In this document: positions 2,608 through 32,547 of the stretch, piece after piece
How the letters are laid out: each line of letters opens with the position of its first letter
How positions within the stretch are numbered: the first letter of the stretch is position 1
Assembly (NCBI GenBank): GCA_017883205.1
Contig: JADGNZ010000062.1
Span: 1 to 32,547 of the forward strand
Reading direction: 5' to 3'
DNA from: Thermoanaerobaculia bacterium
Lineage (GTDB): Bacteria; Acidobacteriota; Thermoanaerobaculia; Gp7-AA8
Length of the DNA stretch: 32,547 nt
Translations under genes and position numbers: made by a program
Notes under the pieces: generated by a model
Told to the model about the DNA's origin: nothing
The model's database searches: none
Seen by the model: the letters and a program-made list of their open reading frames with translations, nothing else

Positions 2608-3618
2608 ATGAAGAAGCTGTTCCTCGCGGCCTTCGTACTGGCGGCCACTGTGGCATCTGCGCAGACGGTCCAGATCAACGGTGCCGGCGCCACGTTTCCC
2701 AACCCGATCTATTCGAAGTGGTTCGACGAGTACCACAAGGTTCATCCGAACGTGGAGATCAACTATCAGCCGATCGGCTCTGGCGGCGGTATCCGTCAGC
2801 TCTCCGCCGGCACGGTGTTTTTCGGCGCAAGCGATGGTCCGATGACGAACGAACAGATCACCGGCGCCGGTTTCCGCATCCTTCACGTCCCCACCGTTCT
2901 CGGGGGCGTCGTGCCCGTCTACAACATCCCTGAAGTGAGCGCCGAGCTGCGATTTACCGGAAAGGTACTGGCCGACATCTTCCTCGGCAAGATCACGAAG
3001 TGGGACGATGCGGGCATCCGTAGTCTCAATCCCGGCGTCAGCCTGCCGAACGTGGACATCACGGTCGTCCACCGTTCTGACGGCTCCGGCACCAGCTACA
3101 TCTGGTGCGACTACCTGTCGAAAGTCTCGCCCGACTTCAAGAAGACCGTCGGGGTAGCTACCTCGGTCAACTGGCCGACCGGCGTCGGCGCCAAGGGGAA
3201 CGAAGGCGTTGCCGGTTTGGTCCGGCAGACGCCCGGCTCGATCGGCTACGTCGAGCTGATCTACGCGCTCCAGAACAAAATCTCGTACGGCTCGGTGCAG
3301 AGCTCTGATGGCGAGTTCGTCCGCGCTTCGACCGAAACCGTCTCCAACGCGGCGGCGGTGGCGGCGAAGAACATGCCGAAGGATTTCCGCGTCTCGATCA
3401 CCAACGCTCCCGGACACGATGTCTATCCGATCTCGTCATTCACCTGGCTGCTCCTCCAGGAGTCTCCCAAGGACGTGGCGCGCTCGCGCATCATGGTTGA
3501 CTTCGCGCGATGGGCGATCTCTGGCGGCCAGGGTTTTGCCCCACAACTCGGCTACGCGCCGCTGCCGAAAGAGGTTGTCGCGCTCGAGTTGGAAGCCCTG
3601 AACCGGGTAAAGCAGTAA
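2608..3618 (+). CDS. pstS: Phosphate ABC transporter substrate-binding protein (soluble form)
   Basis: The protein has 336 residues. The signal peptide MKKLFLAAFVLAATVASA is predicted to be cut at residue 18/19, so this copy should be free in the periplasm. Typical PstS phosphate-contact motifs are present: GAGATFPNPIYSKW, GSGGGIRQL, FGASDGPMT and HRSDGSGTSY, the last forming the anion-binding N-terminal helix. It binds phosphate and delivers it to PstCA. AAGGAGA stands 6-7 nt before the ATG. It lies 90 bp after the porin with no terminator seen, so the two probably share a transcript. The downstream pstS2 is a close paralogue, roughly 70% identical by eye over the alignable part. Confidence 0.95.
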   Translation: MKKLFLAAFVLAATVASAQTVQINGAGATFPNPIYSKWFDEYHKVHPNVEINYQPIGSGGGIRQLSAGTVFFGASDGPMTNEQITGAGFRILHVPTVLGGVVPVYNIPEVSAELRFTGKVLADIFLGKITKWDDAGIRSLNPGVSLPNVDITVVHRSDGSGTSYIWCDYLSKVSPDFKKTVGVATSVNWPTGVGAKGNEGVAGLVRQTPGSIGYVELIYALQNKISYGSVQSSDGEFVRASTETVSNAAAVAAKNMPKDFRVSITNAPGHDVYPISSFTWLLLQESPKDVARSRIMVDFARWAISGGQGFAPQLGYAPLPKEVVALELEALNRVKQ

Positions 3619-3645
3619 GCGGAACAATCGCAGCAAACGAGACGA

Positions 3646-3676
3646 AGCCTTCTCTCCGGCCCGCGGGGAGAAGGCT
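3646..3676 (+). terminator. Hairpin between pstS1 and pstS2 (terminator or attenuator)
   Basis: AGCCTTCTCTCC (3646-3657) pairs with GGGGAGAAGGCT (3665-3676) around a 7-nt loop, with one G-U pair. It is followed by only a weak T stretch (TCGGTTT). It could end or damp the porin-pstS1 transcript, or protect its 3' end, before the second candidate Pho promoter. Confidence 0.6.
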
Positions 3677-3707
3677 CCGTCGGTTTGGCTAAAGATTGGT
3701 GCCTCAC

Positions 3708-3724
3708 TTCACACCGAATTTACA
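3708..3724 (+). promoter_or_regulatory. Candidate Pho box upstream of pstS2
   Basis: TTCACA-N5-TTTACA are two near-identical half-sites at an 11-bp period, 45 bp before the pstS2 ATG at 3769. The 14-mer CACACCGAATTTAC is shared exactly with the site upstream of the porin. The position after the pstS1 hairpin suggests a separate promoter for pstS2-pstCAB-phoU-phoBR. No convincing -10 was identified. Confidence 0.55.
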
Positions 3725-3768
3725 CGCCATGCATCGCCTGCCCAACACAGGTCCGTACGGTACGCGCC

Positions 3769-4809
3769 ATGAAACGAACGTTGCTCGTAGCCCTTCTGTC
3801 TGTTGCCCTCGCGGCGTGTCAGACGAACGAGTCGAAGACGCAGCCGGGGGCAAACGAATCCGGTCCGCTGGCCATCAACGGGGCCGGTGCCACCTTTCCC
3901 AATCCCATTTACTCCAAGTGGTTTGATGAGTACCAGAAGTCGCATCCCGACGTCCGCATCAACTACCAGCCGATCGGCTCGGGAGGCGGCATCAAGCAGT
4001 TGACCGCGCAAACGGTTTTCTTCGGCGCCAGCGACGGCCCGATGACTGATGCGCAGCTCAAAGGTGCTCCGGCTCCGATCCTTCATTTTCCTACGGTGCT
4101 CGGCGGCGTCGTGCCGGTCTACAACGTTCCCGGCGTGAAACAGCCGCTGCGTTTCAGCGGTCCGGTTCTCGCCACCATCTACCTCGGCAGGATCACCAAG
4201 TGGAACCATCCTGCAATCGCACAACTCAACCCAGGAGTGGTGCTTCCCGCCACGGACATCGCGGTCGTCCATCGCTCCGACGGGTCGGGCACGACCTACA
4301 TCTTCTGTGACTTTCTCTCGAAGGTGTCGCCCGATTTCAAGGAGAAGGTCGGCGTCGCTACCTCGGTCAACTGGCCGGCAGGCGTCGGCGCGAAGGGGAA
4401 CGAAGGCGTCTCCGGCCTCGTGCAGCAGACGCCCGGTGCCATCGGCTACGTCGAGTTGATCTACGCGCTGCAGAACAAGATCTCGTACGGCCCTGTGCAG
4501 AACAAGTCCGGCCAGTTCATCACGGCGTCACTGGATTCCGTGACCGCCGCTGCGGCCGGCGTGACGATGCCCGACGACTTCCGCGTCTCGATCACCGATC
4601 CCGCCGGCGCTGATGCCTATCCGATCGCCTCATTCACCTGGATGCTTCTCTATCAGCATCCAGCGGACAAAGCGCGCACCAAAGCGATAGTCGACTTTAT
4701 GAAGTGGGCTCTCGCCGACGGCCAGAAGTTTGCACCCGGACTCGGCTACGCGCCGCTCCCGCAACCGGTCGTGGCGAAAGAAATGCAGGCGCTTGCAACC
4801 GTGCAATGA
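3769..4809 (+). CDS. pstS: Phosphate ABC transporter substrate-binding lipoprotein
   Basis: A longer frame is open from 3685, but the ATG at 3769 begins a textbook lipoprotein signal, MKRTLLVALLSVALAAC, with lipobox LAAC at residues 17-20; the extra upstream residues are not signal-like. The mature protein after Cys20 has a short hydrophilic linker and then the same PstS core as pstS1: GAGATFPNPIYSKW, GSGGGIKQL, FGASDGPMT, HRSDGSGTTY. It is 346 residues long. Being lipid-anchored, it should stay next to the permease, whereas PstS1 should diffuse. Its stop overlaps the pstC start (ATGA), which indicates translational coupling. No Shine-Dalgarno stands out, and a candidate Pho operator lies 45 bp upstream. 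Confidence 0.93.
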   Translation: MKRTLLVALLSVALAACQTNESKTQPGANESGPLAINGAGATFPNPIYSKWFDEYQKSHPDVRINYQPIGSGGGIKQLTAQTVFFGASDGPMTDAQLKGAPAPILHFPTVLGGVVPVYNVPGVKQPLRFSGPVLATIYLGRITKWNHPAIAQLNPGVVLPATDIAVVHRSDGSGTTYIFCDFLSKVSPDFKEKVGVATSVNWPAGVGAKGNEGVSGLVQQTPGAIGYVELIYALQNKISYGPVQNKSGQFITASLDSVTAAAAGVTMPDDFRVSITDPAGADAYPIASFTWMLLYQHPADKARTKAIVDFMKWALADGQKFAPGLGYAPLPQPVVAKEMQALATVQ

Positions 4810-12348: not shown

Positions 12349-12430
12349 CCCCGACCCCCGACCCCCGACCCCCGACCCCCGACCCCCGACCCCCGACCCC
12401 CGACTCCCGACCCCCGACCCCCGACCCCCG
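12349..12430. repeat. 7-bp tandem repeat (CCCCCGA)n, about 11.7 copies
   Basis: Every seventh base from 12353 to 12430 is G, giving twelve exactly spaced copies of CCCCCGA with one C-to-T change at 12405. The complementary strand is a run of G5 blocks separated by TC, a strong G-quadruplex-type sequence. It ends 9 bp before the 3' end of the MFS gene. Confidence 0.95.
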
Positions 12431-25312: not shown

Positions 25313-25687
25313 CTAGCCGGCGCTTCCAATCTTCACGCGCACTCGCTTGACCTCACTCATCGTCGGGGCGCGTGTTTTGCCGTTCGCACGGAGCGACACG
25401 AGCAGGCTCACGCGCCTTCCCGAGATCGCTTCGGCGGGCAATGGAACGGCGTACGTTCCGGACTCATGACCTGGGCGAATGCCGTAAGGCGAGATCACTC
25501 CGAGGAAGTGGCCGGACGACGTCGTGATCTCGATCTCGCCGCTGCGCGGGATCACGCCGACGGTCACGAGCAGCGTTGCAGTCTCGCCTGCCCGCAACGC
25601 GTGGGGCAGGACGAGGTTCACCGTGCGGCTTTCGGAGTGATGCGCGCCAACCGCGAAGAGTGCCAGTATGGCGAGGAAGGCGCGCAT
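25313..25687 (-). CDS. Small secreted protein resembling the tyrosinase C-terminal domain
   Basis: The 124-residue protein has a signal peptide (MRAFLAILALFAVGAHHSES) and a single beta-sandwich-like domain. It starts 8 bp after the tyrosinase stop, so the two form an operon. Its sequence lines up with the end of that tyrosinase: 'GVISPYGI.....GTYAVPLP......VSLLVSLRANGKTRAP' against 'GTIAFFGH.....VTFAVPLP......VSVNIRLVPVQAHGKTTAL'. It therefore looks like a free-standing copy of the enzyme's C-terminal domain. In other tyrosinases such domains, or separate caddie proteins, cover the copper site or aid its loading; that role here is inference. Confidence 0.7.
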   Translation of the reverse strand: MRAFLAILALFAVGAHHSESRTVNLVLPHALRAGETATLLVTVGVIPRSGEIEITTSSGHFLGVISPYGIRPGHESGTYAVPLPAEAISGRRVSLLVSLRANGKTRAPTMSEVKRVRVKIGSAG

Positions 25688-25695
25688 CCCTCACG

Positions 25696-27330
25696 TCATT
25701 GCACGCTGCGCACCGAGACCGCCCTGAGCGCCGTCGTCTTTCCGTGTGCTTGCACCGGCACGAGGCGAATGTTCACCGACACCTGCGCCGCCAGGAGGTT
25801 ATGGAACGCCTCGGGGCGTTTCGGCAGTGGAACGGCGAACGTCACGTCTTCCGACATCGCCATCAGATGAGGCATGTGGCCGAAGAAGGCGATCGTTCCG
25901 GCGTAATACGGACTGTCGGGACCTACCTGCGTAACGTCCGGCGGCGCGCCGACGATCACGTCGAACTCGCGTGCGGCCGACGTCTGGCTGGGACGCTGTA
26001 CCGTGACCGCCGCGATCAACGTCGGTGCTGCGGCGGCGAGATGCTCGTTCACCGCAGCACGCGGGACGGCGAGCGACGCCGTGCGTCCTTTCATTTCTCC
26101 CTTCACCGATACTTTTGCGTGCTTCGTCAGCAAGAGACTCGCGGAGGCTTGCGCTTCGTCGCCGCTGCCCGGCTCGTAGTCGTATTGGAAGCGCTCGGTG
26201 CTGAGATAGTCACCGGCATGACTGGGACCGACGAACTTGCCGTCGCCTCTGACAAAGAAGAGGAACGGCTCTTTCGAGAGCGTGCTGAGGTCCGGCTCCG
26301 GAGGAAGAATCGGGAGATTGAGACGCTTCTGCTTGCGCGTCCAGACGTCCCATAGACGATCCATGTTCGAGTGATGCAGGAAGAAGATCGGATCGACCGG
26401 CGAGAGGTTGTTGGTCATGTTGCCGTACGGCCCAGGATCGAGAGGGCCGACGCCGCCGATGTAGTTATGGGTCTTGTTGTGCGGGAAGCCCTCCAGGACG
26501 GAGGAGGTTCCGGGGCCGCCTGGCTGGGCGTTGTGAGACGACGTCTTTGCGCTGGTGAAGCTTTGGGTGATGTCCGGATCGTAATACTTCTTCGGCTGCA
26601 GGCCAGCCACAATGGTCTGCAGCGAGACGTCGAATGCCGTCCTCTTGTCGAGCTTCGGATTGTCGCGCGTGAGATAACGCGAGCCGCATGTGTTGGCGAA
26701 CGCCATGTTGCCGGAGTTGCCGTTGCCCGACGACGGATCGAGCCCTGTTACCTCATTCCACAGGAGATCGAGACTCGTGTATCCCCGGAGATTGAGCTGC
26801 GCGCGCTGATCCGCGCTCAGCGTTCTCCAGTACGACTTCAGTGCCGGTTGAATGAAGGCGGTGAAGTCGTCGAGGTTGCGCGTGTACCGCTCGAAGGCAT
26901 GATGCTGCGGATTCAGCACGCCGTCGAACATCCCGTCGGGGATCTGCGGCAGCGCCGTCCAGTCCCAATACGGCATGGCGAAGGCCGGATCGCCGCTCAG
27001 ATTGCGAATGGTCTCCTCGAAGAAGCCGACGTAGCCGCGGTGCCACACGTAGAACCACCAGTTCCCGTGCGGGCAGTCCATGAGGTGGACGAACGCGTTG
27101 CGGAACCAATTGCGCGGATCAGACGCCGGCAGATTCCGCATCGCTTCGACGCCCTTGGCGTAGCTCGCCAGCGCCTTCTGCCCCTGCGCGCTCGTCACGT
27201 TGTAGCGCGTGTATTTGGCCGCCGTACTCTGCGCGAACACGCTGTGGAAAGGAAAGGCGGCCGCACCCGCCGCGACCATCGTGGTTTGCAGAAAATGACG
27301 ACGTGTCAGCCCATCGTATATTTCGGACAT
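25696..27330 (-). CDS. Tat-exported tyrosinase (type 3 copper protein)
   Basis: The start is ATG 27330, with GGGAGGG about 6 nt upstream; an upstream in-frame Met lacks such a site. The 544-residue protein opens with a Tat signal (LTRRHFLQTTMVAAGAAAF), so it is exported folded. CuA ligands are His82, His88 and His97 (VHLMDCPHG...WHRGY), with Cys86 two residues before His88, the C-x-H pattern that forms a thioether in fungal tyrosinases. CuB ligands are His284, His288 (HNKTH) and His320 (DPIFFLHHSNMDRLWDVW). The C-terminal 90 residues (REFDVIV ... AVPLP ... GKTTAL) resemble the KFDV domain of plant polyphenol oxidases. It should oxidise phenols to quinones in the periplasm or outside. Confidence 0.92.
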   Translation of the reverse strand: MSEIYDGLTRRHFLQTTMVAAGAAAFPFHSVFAQSTAAKYTRYNVTSAQGQKALASYAKGVEAMRNLPASDPRNWFRNAFVHLMDCPHGNWWFYVWHRGYVGFFEETIRNLSGDPAFAMPYWDWTALPQIPDGMFDGVLNPQHHAFERYTRNLDDFTAFIQPALKSYWRTLSADQRAQLNLRGYTSLDLLWNEVTGLDPSSGNGNSGNMAFANTCGSRYLTRDNPKLDKRTAFDVSLQTIVAGLQPKKYYDPDITQSFTSAKTSSHNAQPGGPGTSSVLEGFPHNKTHNYIGGVGPLDPGPYGNMTNNLSPVDPIFFLHHSNMDRLWDVWTRKQKRLNLPILPPEPDLSTLSKEPFLFFVRGDGKFVGPSHAGDYLSTERFQYDYEPGSGDEAQASASLLLTKHAKVSVKGEMKGRTASLAVPRAAVNEHLAAAAPTLIAAVTVQRPSQTSAAREFDVIVGAPPDVTQVGPDSPYYAGTIAFFGHMPHLMAMSEDVTFAVPLPKRPEAFHNLLAAQVSVNIRLVPVQAHGKTTALRAVSVRSVQ

Positions 27331-29698: not shown

Positions 29699-32002
<2,304 letters not shown>

Positions 32003-32264
32003 GGGTCTCCCAGGCGGTGCGGCCACCGTGCAATTGTGGAAGGCATTGTACGATACGTCAGATGGCCGACCCTCGCCGCTTGTGGCGTTGATCGGGCATC
32101 GCGCCGGCGACGACCCACTCGAGCGGTTTCCGGACGACCGTCGAAGCTCGCTCCAGGCGTGGCCGCCTGCTGTCCGTGTTTTGTCCGTGCGTTTCGGCGG
32201 TTTCCCCTCCACCAAGCGCCGCGCTGAACCATCCGCATATAGGTACGCTGCACGACGCAAGCAT

Positions 32265-32547
32265 TCACCGATCTTTATAAAACTGCGCCGTCTCCGCGAT
32301 CCCCGTGGCGTACGGCGTCGGCTGGACTCCGAACCGCCGCTCGAACTTCGACGAGTCGAACTGGTACGGCAGCGTGCTCTGATAGAGCATCTCCACCGAT
32401 TCACGGATGTCGCCGTTGAAGATCCCGGCCAGACGGAGCATCCATGGCCGAAGCACCATCAGGCGCGGCTCGACGTTGAGAGCGCGCGCGGCGGCGGCAA
32501 CGAGCTCGCGCCCGCTCCACGGCGGCGCCGCCGTCGGCAGATGCCAC
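32265..32547 (-). CDS. NAD-dependent epimerase/dehydratase, C-terminal part only
   Basis: The frame is open to the right window edge (reading from 32546) and ends at TGA 32265. The 93 visible residues fit the C-terminal substrate domain of extended SDR enzymes: [20 protein letters not shown], then [22 protein letters not shown], and the typical end [20 protein letters not shown]. The Rossmann part and the YxxxK site lie outside the window, so the substrate is unknown. It is upstream of the collagen-like gene on the same strand, with a 262-bp gap (32003-32264) in which I see no gene. Confidence 0.85.

Follow-up and report, generated by a model that had tools for sequence, protein, structure and literature searches.

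Tyrosinases are copper enzymes that form melanin. Bacterial tyrosinases are divided into three architectures, with a caddie protein, with a C-terminal extension, or with neither, and the same account, from 2022, states that experimental data on the in vivo activation of the lid-bearing ones do not exist (PMC9454253); this and the other articles below are cited for the parts of their text that were available. The Streptomyces caddie MelC1 (PF06236) serves as the example of a shielding domain with a gene of its own (PMC11608171). A shielding domain, or lid, that is part of the enzyme itself (in cis) occurs in the V. spinosum tyrosinase, which has a gatekeeper residue, Phe453, and no caddie (PMC10526336), and in HcTyr1 and HcTyr2; Phe397 is the placeholder residue of HcTyr1, and the HcTyr2 lid is required for activity and stability (PMC11609597), so that inhibition need not be the sole function of a lid. 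RsTyr in which the C-terminal domain was still intact has been purified and assayed, and its authors mention the caddie only as an analogy and propose a conformational change that they could not model (PMC13416272). In Sinorhizobium meliloti, mcoA, a hypothetical gene, and mepA form a cluster, and MepA, as cited there, gave melanin in E. coli (PMC7010606). PpoB2 of Marinomonas mediterranea is similar to putative transmembrane metal-binding proteins (PMC2855505). Here we describe, in a 32,547-nucleotide stretch of a Thermoanaerobaculia bacterium (contig JADGNZ010000062.1; below, the window), a tyrosinase gene, P0001, and the small gene that follows it, P0002, whose product appears to be a remote relative of the tyrosinase lid and may act on the enzyme as a second lid, in trans. 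Among the papers listed by our literature searches, none described a free-standing lid-like tyrosinase partner; subscription journals were mostly outside their scope, and such an absence is not proof.

Linkage of the small gene to tyrosinase

Both genes lie on the minus strand. P0001 (27330-25696, 544 residues) is followed by P0002 (25687-25313, 124 residues) after a spacer of 8 bp (25688-25695) with the ribosome-site-like sequence GTGAGGG, and these coordinates and the gap agree with the initial annotation. The nearest upstream frame on the same strand encodes a tetratricopeptide repeat (TPR) protein and ends 275 bases ahead of the tyrosinase start, and the long frame past P0002 is convergent, so the pair looks like a bicistronic unit and is probably co-transcribed; a promoter and terminator scan gave nothing usable for this unit.

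The gene pair is kept in other genomes. Relatives of P0001 from a one-genome-per-species collection (94 found, 80 kept) comprise group A (L034-L080; 47 loci with 36 to 68% identity to P0001 in the best segment), group B (L081-L103 and L105; 24 loci), and nine loci with a different C terminus (L104 and L106-L113). Starting from P0002, model building converged on 28 proteins; within the 80 loci, their genes occur exclusively in the position immediately after a group-A tyrosinase, on its strand. Whole-genome searches of the 47 group-A genomes gave exactly one match in 28 of them, always adjoining the tyrosinase, and none in 19; at L066, L075, and L077, whose whole-genome searches gave no copy, the contig stops about 240 bases or less from the tyrosinase. 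When only the small-protein profile was used, the 297 genomes searched in the window's phylum yielded the window's own strong match and six weak ones, the 200 searched in the order to which the L034 genome belongs yielded five matches (three new), and the 82 searched in that of the L048 genome (Azospirillum) yielded ten (four new); first-look candidates scored per genome were capped at 14, 21, and 52 in these three sets and at 91 in the group-A genomes, and weak extra copies may be missed. The weak phylum matches (L115-L120; E values of 4e-4 to 6e-3) were dropped, being frames of 254 to 1768 residues with no tyrosinase in the fetched stretch, whereas all seven new copies have one. Thus, every strong match in the searched genomes (36 of 36: the window, the 28, and the 7) adjoins a tyrosinase.

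The same arrangement is found on plasmids. Fifteen plasmid records contain a small-protein match, 13 of them from Sinorhizobium, and in all five plasmid regions inspected (three reached through the small-protein match, two through a tyrosinase match) the small gene stands after the tyrosinase and is annotated as hypothetical or uncharacterized; from the shared gene order, the tyrosinase of these records is probably MepA. A single-sequence search of the window's order with P0002 found no relatives (the best E value, apart from the self-match, was 0.027), and a tyrosinase search of 396 genomes of the phylum gave five distant matches besides the window.

According to record titles, carriers include members of Acidobacteria, Alpha-, Beta-, and Gammaproteobacteria, Eremiobacterota, and a cyanobacterium. 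In a quick tree of 57 tyrosinases they occupy the deepest group-A branches, and presence and absence of the partner need at least seven changes; the tree agrees with a partner that was present in the ancestor and then lost repeatedly, although losses rather than gains are our reading. The small protein is under constraint, though not strong, with ratios of nonsynonymous to synonymous substitution rates of 0.16, 0.25, 0.36, 0.43, and 0.48 in five close pairs from two genera. Two tyrosinases fall inside clades that do not suit their titles, L060 (Bacillus subtilis) in that of Stenotrophomonas and L050 (Mycobacterium) in that of Inquilinus, and their records are possibly mislabelled or contaminated.

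Likeness of the small protein to the tyrosinase lid

P0001 (25696-27330) comprises a twin-arginine translocation (Tat) signal, a catalytic core, and a C-terminal lid, as judged from Pfam, an AlphaFold2 (AF2) model, and structural comparison by VIA. It matches Tyrosinase (PF00264) at 1.8e-37, which places it among the type 3 copper tyrosinases; TAT_signal (0.0017) and PPO1_KFDV (0.025) are below their Pfam cutoffs, and the lid reaches 15 bits against the PPO1_KFDV (PF12143) cutoff of 26 bits. The AF2 model (36 sequences) has a predicted local distance difference test (pLDDT) value of 85 and a predicted template modeling (pTM) score of 0.87, and it resembles the V. spinosum tyrosinase core (8bbq) with a VIA Z value of 44; core and C-terminal domain together give Z values of 28.4 with the Ralstonia TYR (7xio) and 26.1 with the Hahella structure (8b74). 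The core (residues 37 to 391; 26158-27222) has H82, C86-x-H88, H97, H284, H288, and H320 in invariant columns of a 36-row alignment (A2), and by analogy with the 8bbq family these residues would have copper-binding and thioether roles. The lid (approximately residues 400 to 544; 25699-26133), delimited by AF2 secondary structure and by the lid profile A4, contains seven main strands, two short strands at 408 to 414, and a helix at 424 to 432; profile A4 matches the C-terminal domains of 9wfm (1.9e-32) and 7xio (3.7e-21).

P0002 had been described in the initial annotation as a free-standing copy of this domain. BLASTP aligns residues 458 to 544 of P0001 with residues 41 to 117 of P0002 at 30% identity over 89 columns (E value of 3e-4, for a single comparison), and the AVPLP and VS...GKT.A blocks on which that description was based are indeed present in both proteins; the GKT.A block is peculiar to this pair, and the block shared across the family is approximately G.I..(F/Y)G...GTY.(V/I)P(L/V)P. 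Comparison of 29 small proteins with 48 tyrosinase C termini by hhalign gave a score of 38.6 and a probability of 88%. Controls scored at most 19.9 for 200 column shuffles of the C-terminal profile, 14.0 and 12.9 for the reversed tyrosinase and small-protein profiles, 11.2 to 18.5 for six windows along the tyrosinase (the top one partly overlapping the lid), and 11.6 to 14.3 for 12 windows of the β-rich multicopper oxidase family; because 38.6 is well above all of these, the match exceeds chance. The profile of the P0002 family scores 39.6 against the C-terminal domain of its own group (A) and 24.0 against the Ralstonia-type one, its probability drops to 42% against a mixed A and B lid profile, and an hmmsearch with it picked up no tyrosinase at E values up to 10. 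These comparisons support the small protein as a remote relative of the tyrosinase lid; a recent copy is not borne out, since the pair looks old and is spread over several phyla.

The AF2 model of P0002 (29 sequences; mean pLDDT of 87) is mostly β, with a β-sandwich domain at residues 21 to 122 (25322-25627) in which pLDDT is 83 to 97 per ten-residue block from 21 to 120. The seven main strands of the lid and of P0002 pair in order (417-423/21-26, 438-445/35-43, 455-460/51-56, 476-481/61-65, 495-501/77-83, 516-525/92-101, and 535-542/113-122), as read from both DSSP strings and not from superposed models; P0002 has an additional three-residue strand at 104 to 106. Among the paired stretches are SLAVPRA/VNLVLPHA in strand 1, AGTIAFFG/LGVISPYG in strand 4, and TFAVPLP/TYAVPLP in strand 5, and, within the reach of these tools, structure prediction did not find the folds of the two domains to differ. 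In VIA, the 7xio lid (residues 361 to 497) ranks second among the matches of the P0002 model (Z value of 8.2, 2.5 Å, 90 residues), and the lids of plant enzymes score 7.4 (4z12), 7.1 (6hqj), and 6.8 (6els). Foldseek gave no viral match at an E value of 0.001 and no tyrosinase among the 50 PDB matches listed; MelC1 chains are absent among the 50 VIA matches listed, which proves nothing.

Two alternatives bear directly on this fold. A chance neighbor with no functional tie, resembling the lid by convergence of β-sandwiches, would agree with the 19 of 47 group-A genomes that have no copy and with Foldseek not singling out tyrosinases; however, the position of all 36 strong matches beside a tyrosinase largely refutes it, the profile score is about twice that of the best control, and we regard it as barely credible. 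Many of the VIA matches are carbohydrate-binding or glycosidase domains (the carbohydrate-binding modules [CBM] CBM35 and CBM6, glucuronidases), and the V. spinosum lid likewise resembles such domains (PMC10526336), which would suit an accessory protein that binds glycans or melanin and tethers the enzyme or what it makes to the cell surface, with a likeness to the lid that is incidental or repurposed. Such a function appears quite improbable, as the sequence profile points to the lid and the linkage to tyrosinase holds for all 36 strong matches.

The alignments also connect a residue of the small protein with the gate of the lid. Profile A4 puts residues 389 to 398 of HcTyr1 (NFVGCIGLFG) on YYAGTIAFFG of P0001, with the placeholder Phe397 (chain sequence numbering) on F483 (25882-25884), which is invariant in the 36 rows of A2, and hhalign aligns F483 with Y68 of P0002 (25484-25486). 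By these two steps, the small protein keeps an aromatic residue at the gate position, which is F in 30, Y in 6, H in 3, and L in 1 of 40 members including P0002 (L157, a repeat of L156, was omitted), thus F, Y, or H in 39 of 40. In the same rows, G44, G63, and E112 are invariant, and R106 is R in 38. The aromatic residue at position 68 could conceivably reach the active site in trans. In many group-A tyrosinases, the lid loop that follows FFG (P0001 residues 485 to 494; approximately 25849-25878) is Met/His-rich (M..GM.MS), a richness that the small partner does not share; the loop is possibly a copper-entry site.

P0002 (25313-25687), taken from its sequence, profiles, and model as a free-standing lid-like protein, has no Pfam match at E values up to 10 and no NCBIfam match. 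Among the 29 members of its family, four Pfam families in total are matched at E values up to 5 (Big_6 at 0.00086 in one member, Lmo2446-like_N in eight members with a best value of 0.021, and two others more weakly); neither PPO1_KFDV nor MelC1 is matched by any member, and membership of the MelC1 family was ruled out on this ground. The small-protein profile A1 found nothing better than an E value of 0.12 among PDB sequences, so the small protein has not already been solved there. Across the 29 aligned rows, none of the His, Cys, or Met positions is conserved; the commonest is a His at position 29 (14 of 29). A copper chaperone is unlikely without a conserved metal ligand and was set aside.

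The N terminus of P0002 (approximately residues 1 to 20; 25628-25687) is a probable Sec signal peptide without a twin arginine, to judge by eye from the sequence and from the low pLDDT of residues 1 to 20, and it is the only hydrophobic stretch noticed by eye in this protein. In most other relatives, the frame opens with a hydrophobic stretch, though several start codons are uncertain, whereas the sinorhizobial small proteins start with MADQ.. right at the domain and lack a signal peptide; of the four records checked, three (two of them alike) have an in-frame stop shortly upstream and the fourth has a nonhydrophobic upstream stretch. The description as a secreted protein in the initial annotation does not extend to these Sinorhizobium forms. 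The S. medicae tyrosinase retains a Tat-type RRSFVKG, and the sinorhizobial small protein would have to leave the cell together with the Tat-exported tyrosinase or else function in the cytoplasm. This would fit assembly before export, that is, a folding or export helper that stabilizes the apo-tyrosinase until copper loading and export are complete; however, most relatives inspected have a hydrophobic N terminus of their own, no His, Cys, or Met is conserved, and heterologous activity is reported with the partner unmentioned in the text available (PMC7010606), all of which makes such a helper improbable.

A second small-protein family and neighboring genes

A different family of small proteins, probably secreted, is encoded downstream of all 24 group-B tyrosinases (e.g., L094:5370-5852); its hidden Markov model (HMM) was built from 21 loci, and the other three were found with it. 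Group B is of the RsTyr type, L094 matching 7xio at 7e-166. This second family (small B) has no convincing Pfam family. Profile comparison with the P0002 family (small A) gives probabilities of 51 to 72%, and the small-A protein of L076 is hit by the small-B model at an E value of 0.038, which is suggestive of a relation between the two families; a relation of small B to the lid has weak indications, with 2 to 12% against either group's lid and 0.6% when profile A3 is compared with the mixed lid profile A4. Each of the five profile pairs tested scored above its 100 column shuffles and above the reversed profile. With evidence so mixed (0.6 to 12%), small B was not retained as a clear lid relative and is regarded as a conserved neighbor that may be related.

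In both groups, genes for multicopper oxidases are repeatedly found close to the tyrosinase, on either side of it (L159:544-2493, L043, L035, L050, L056-L058, L081, L088, L091, L094, L098, and L105). A 130-residue protein without a Pfam match is encoded between the multicopper oxidase and the tyrosinase at L159:2521-2913 and has a relative in Granulicella (L043). Directly after two of the more distant tyrosinases lies a gene for a probable HExxHxxG metalloprotease (L104:5315-6205 and L108:5149-6075; Matrixin, M57, and others below cutoff), a possible lid-cleaving activator. Elsewhere in the window, a large collagen-like frame with Gly-X-Thr repeats (29699-32404, minus strand) contains an array of an 81-bp unit at 30960-31162, and positions 12349-12430 hold a near-perfect 7-bp tandem repeat (CCCCGAC, 11.7 copies). 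At 2608-4809 on the plus strand are two tandem genes presumably for phosphate-binding-like proteins, followed by what we take to be phosphate-transporter-like and regulator genes.

A possible lid in trans

The reading that fits best, although we put it at slightly less than an even chance, is that the small protein serves the tyrosinase as a further lid, acting in trans alongside the one in cis, with a caddie-like role but without being a MelC1 homologue. In favor of this reading are the linkage to tyrosinase, the profile relation to the lid, the shared strand order and the superposition on solved lids, the residue at the placeholder-equivalent position, and the constraint on the protein. The partner would be made from the same transcript as the tyrosinase and exported, here apparently through Sec and the tyrosinase through Tat; it would dock on the enzyme as the cis lid does and point its aromatic residue (Y68 here) at the mouth of the active site. 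Ahead of the displacement or cleavage of the cis lid, in the course of it, or afterward, it would keep the copper center covered or stabilized.

Such a protein differs from each of the described systems. It shares with the PPO1_KFDV-type lids (RsTyr 7XIO, HcTyr1 8B74, and MepA-type 9WFM) a remote sequence relation, the same order of main strands in the predicted fold, and an aromatic residue at the placeholder-equivalent position; however, it is encoded by a gene of its own, in most cases has a signal peptide, is shortened, is additional to the cis lid, and does not match the Pfam model. Like the Streptomyces caddie MelC1, it is encoded beside the tyrosinase, and its aromatic residue is proposed to reach the active site as caddie Tyr98 does, whereas its gene is downstream rather than upstream, it has no PF06236 match and no conserved metal ligands, its enzyme has a lid of its own, and it is not known as essential. 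PpoB2 (COG5486) is likewise the second gene of a tyrosinase operon, but the small protein is a small β protein without conserved metal ligands, unlike what is described for PpoB2 in the text available (PMC2855505). The mcoA-hypothetical-mepA cluster is present on sinorhizobial plasmids, where the small gene comes after the tyrosinase; the available part of the S. meliloti paper discusses the three upstream genes, with no mention noticed there of a gene after mepA (PMC7010606).

The main rival has the small protein as a displacer or activator, in which the free domain binds the cis lid or competes with it, pulls it off the active site, and switches the latent enzyme on. The small protein seems to add to the cis lid rather than replace it, which agrees with a displacer, as do the assays of RsTyr with its C-terminal domain intact and the unmodeled conformational change suggested by its authors (PMC13416272). 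Distances among the small proteins correlate with those of the core (r = 0.84; maximum of 2000 permutations, 0.52) and of the C-terminal domain (r = 0.90), and the partial correlation is 0.61 with the C-terminal domain given the core (maximum of 2000 permutations, 0.37) and 0.25 with the core given the C-terminal domain. The values hint at a tie to the lid, in favor of a trans lid as well as of a displacer; however, similar evolutionary rates can yield such correlated divergence, and with a hypothetical interface we consider displacement unlikely.

Several observations weigh against a trans lid. The cis lid is retained in the aligned group-A tyrosinases, so a second one is not obviously needed, and the 19 of 47 genomes without a copy, together with the at least seven changes on the tree, indicate that the partner is dispensable in some. 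MepA (PMC7010606) and RsTyr (PMC13416272) are reported as active with the partner unmentioned in the available text, which covers the MepA work without the extent of the clone; an obligatory helper role of the MelC1 type is therefore unlikely. The lid helix at 424 to 432 has no counterpart in P0002, and Foldseek finds no PDB match to the model at an E value of 0.001. Unrelated sandwiches (β-galactosidase, cellulose-synthase, glucuronidase, CBM, and transforming growth factor β [TGF-β] prodomain) reach VIA Z values of 6 to 8.2, near those of the lids, so the fold alone is not decisive. The aromatic at position 68 may lie in the core of the domain instead of acting as a gate, and because the small-protein profile was built from tyrosinase neighbors, diverged unlinked relatives may be missed.

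These findings suggest that, behind many bacterial tyrosinases already carrying a built-in lid, a possible regulator of the enzyme is encoded that has been overlooked, a small and usually secreted protein. In a wider form, which we hold doubtful though with some chance of being right, long bacterial tyrosinases (the MepA type, and the RsTyr type through the perhaps related small B) would be two-component systems with lids of one fold in cis and in trans, whose exchange sets the opening of the active site; if so, MepA (9WFM type) and RsTyr have been studied without their second subunit. The latency of lidded bacterial tyrosinases and their opening in the cell are unsettled, and a conserved partner with a lid-like fold, annotated as hypothetical, is a direct, testable candidate. 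For the enzymes with which catechol and melanin are produced, it might explain or improve yield, latency, and stability. A case with a lid of each kind would link the cis lid of the plant enzymes and the trans caddie of Streptomyces.

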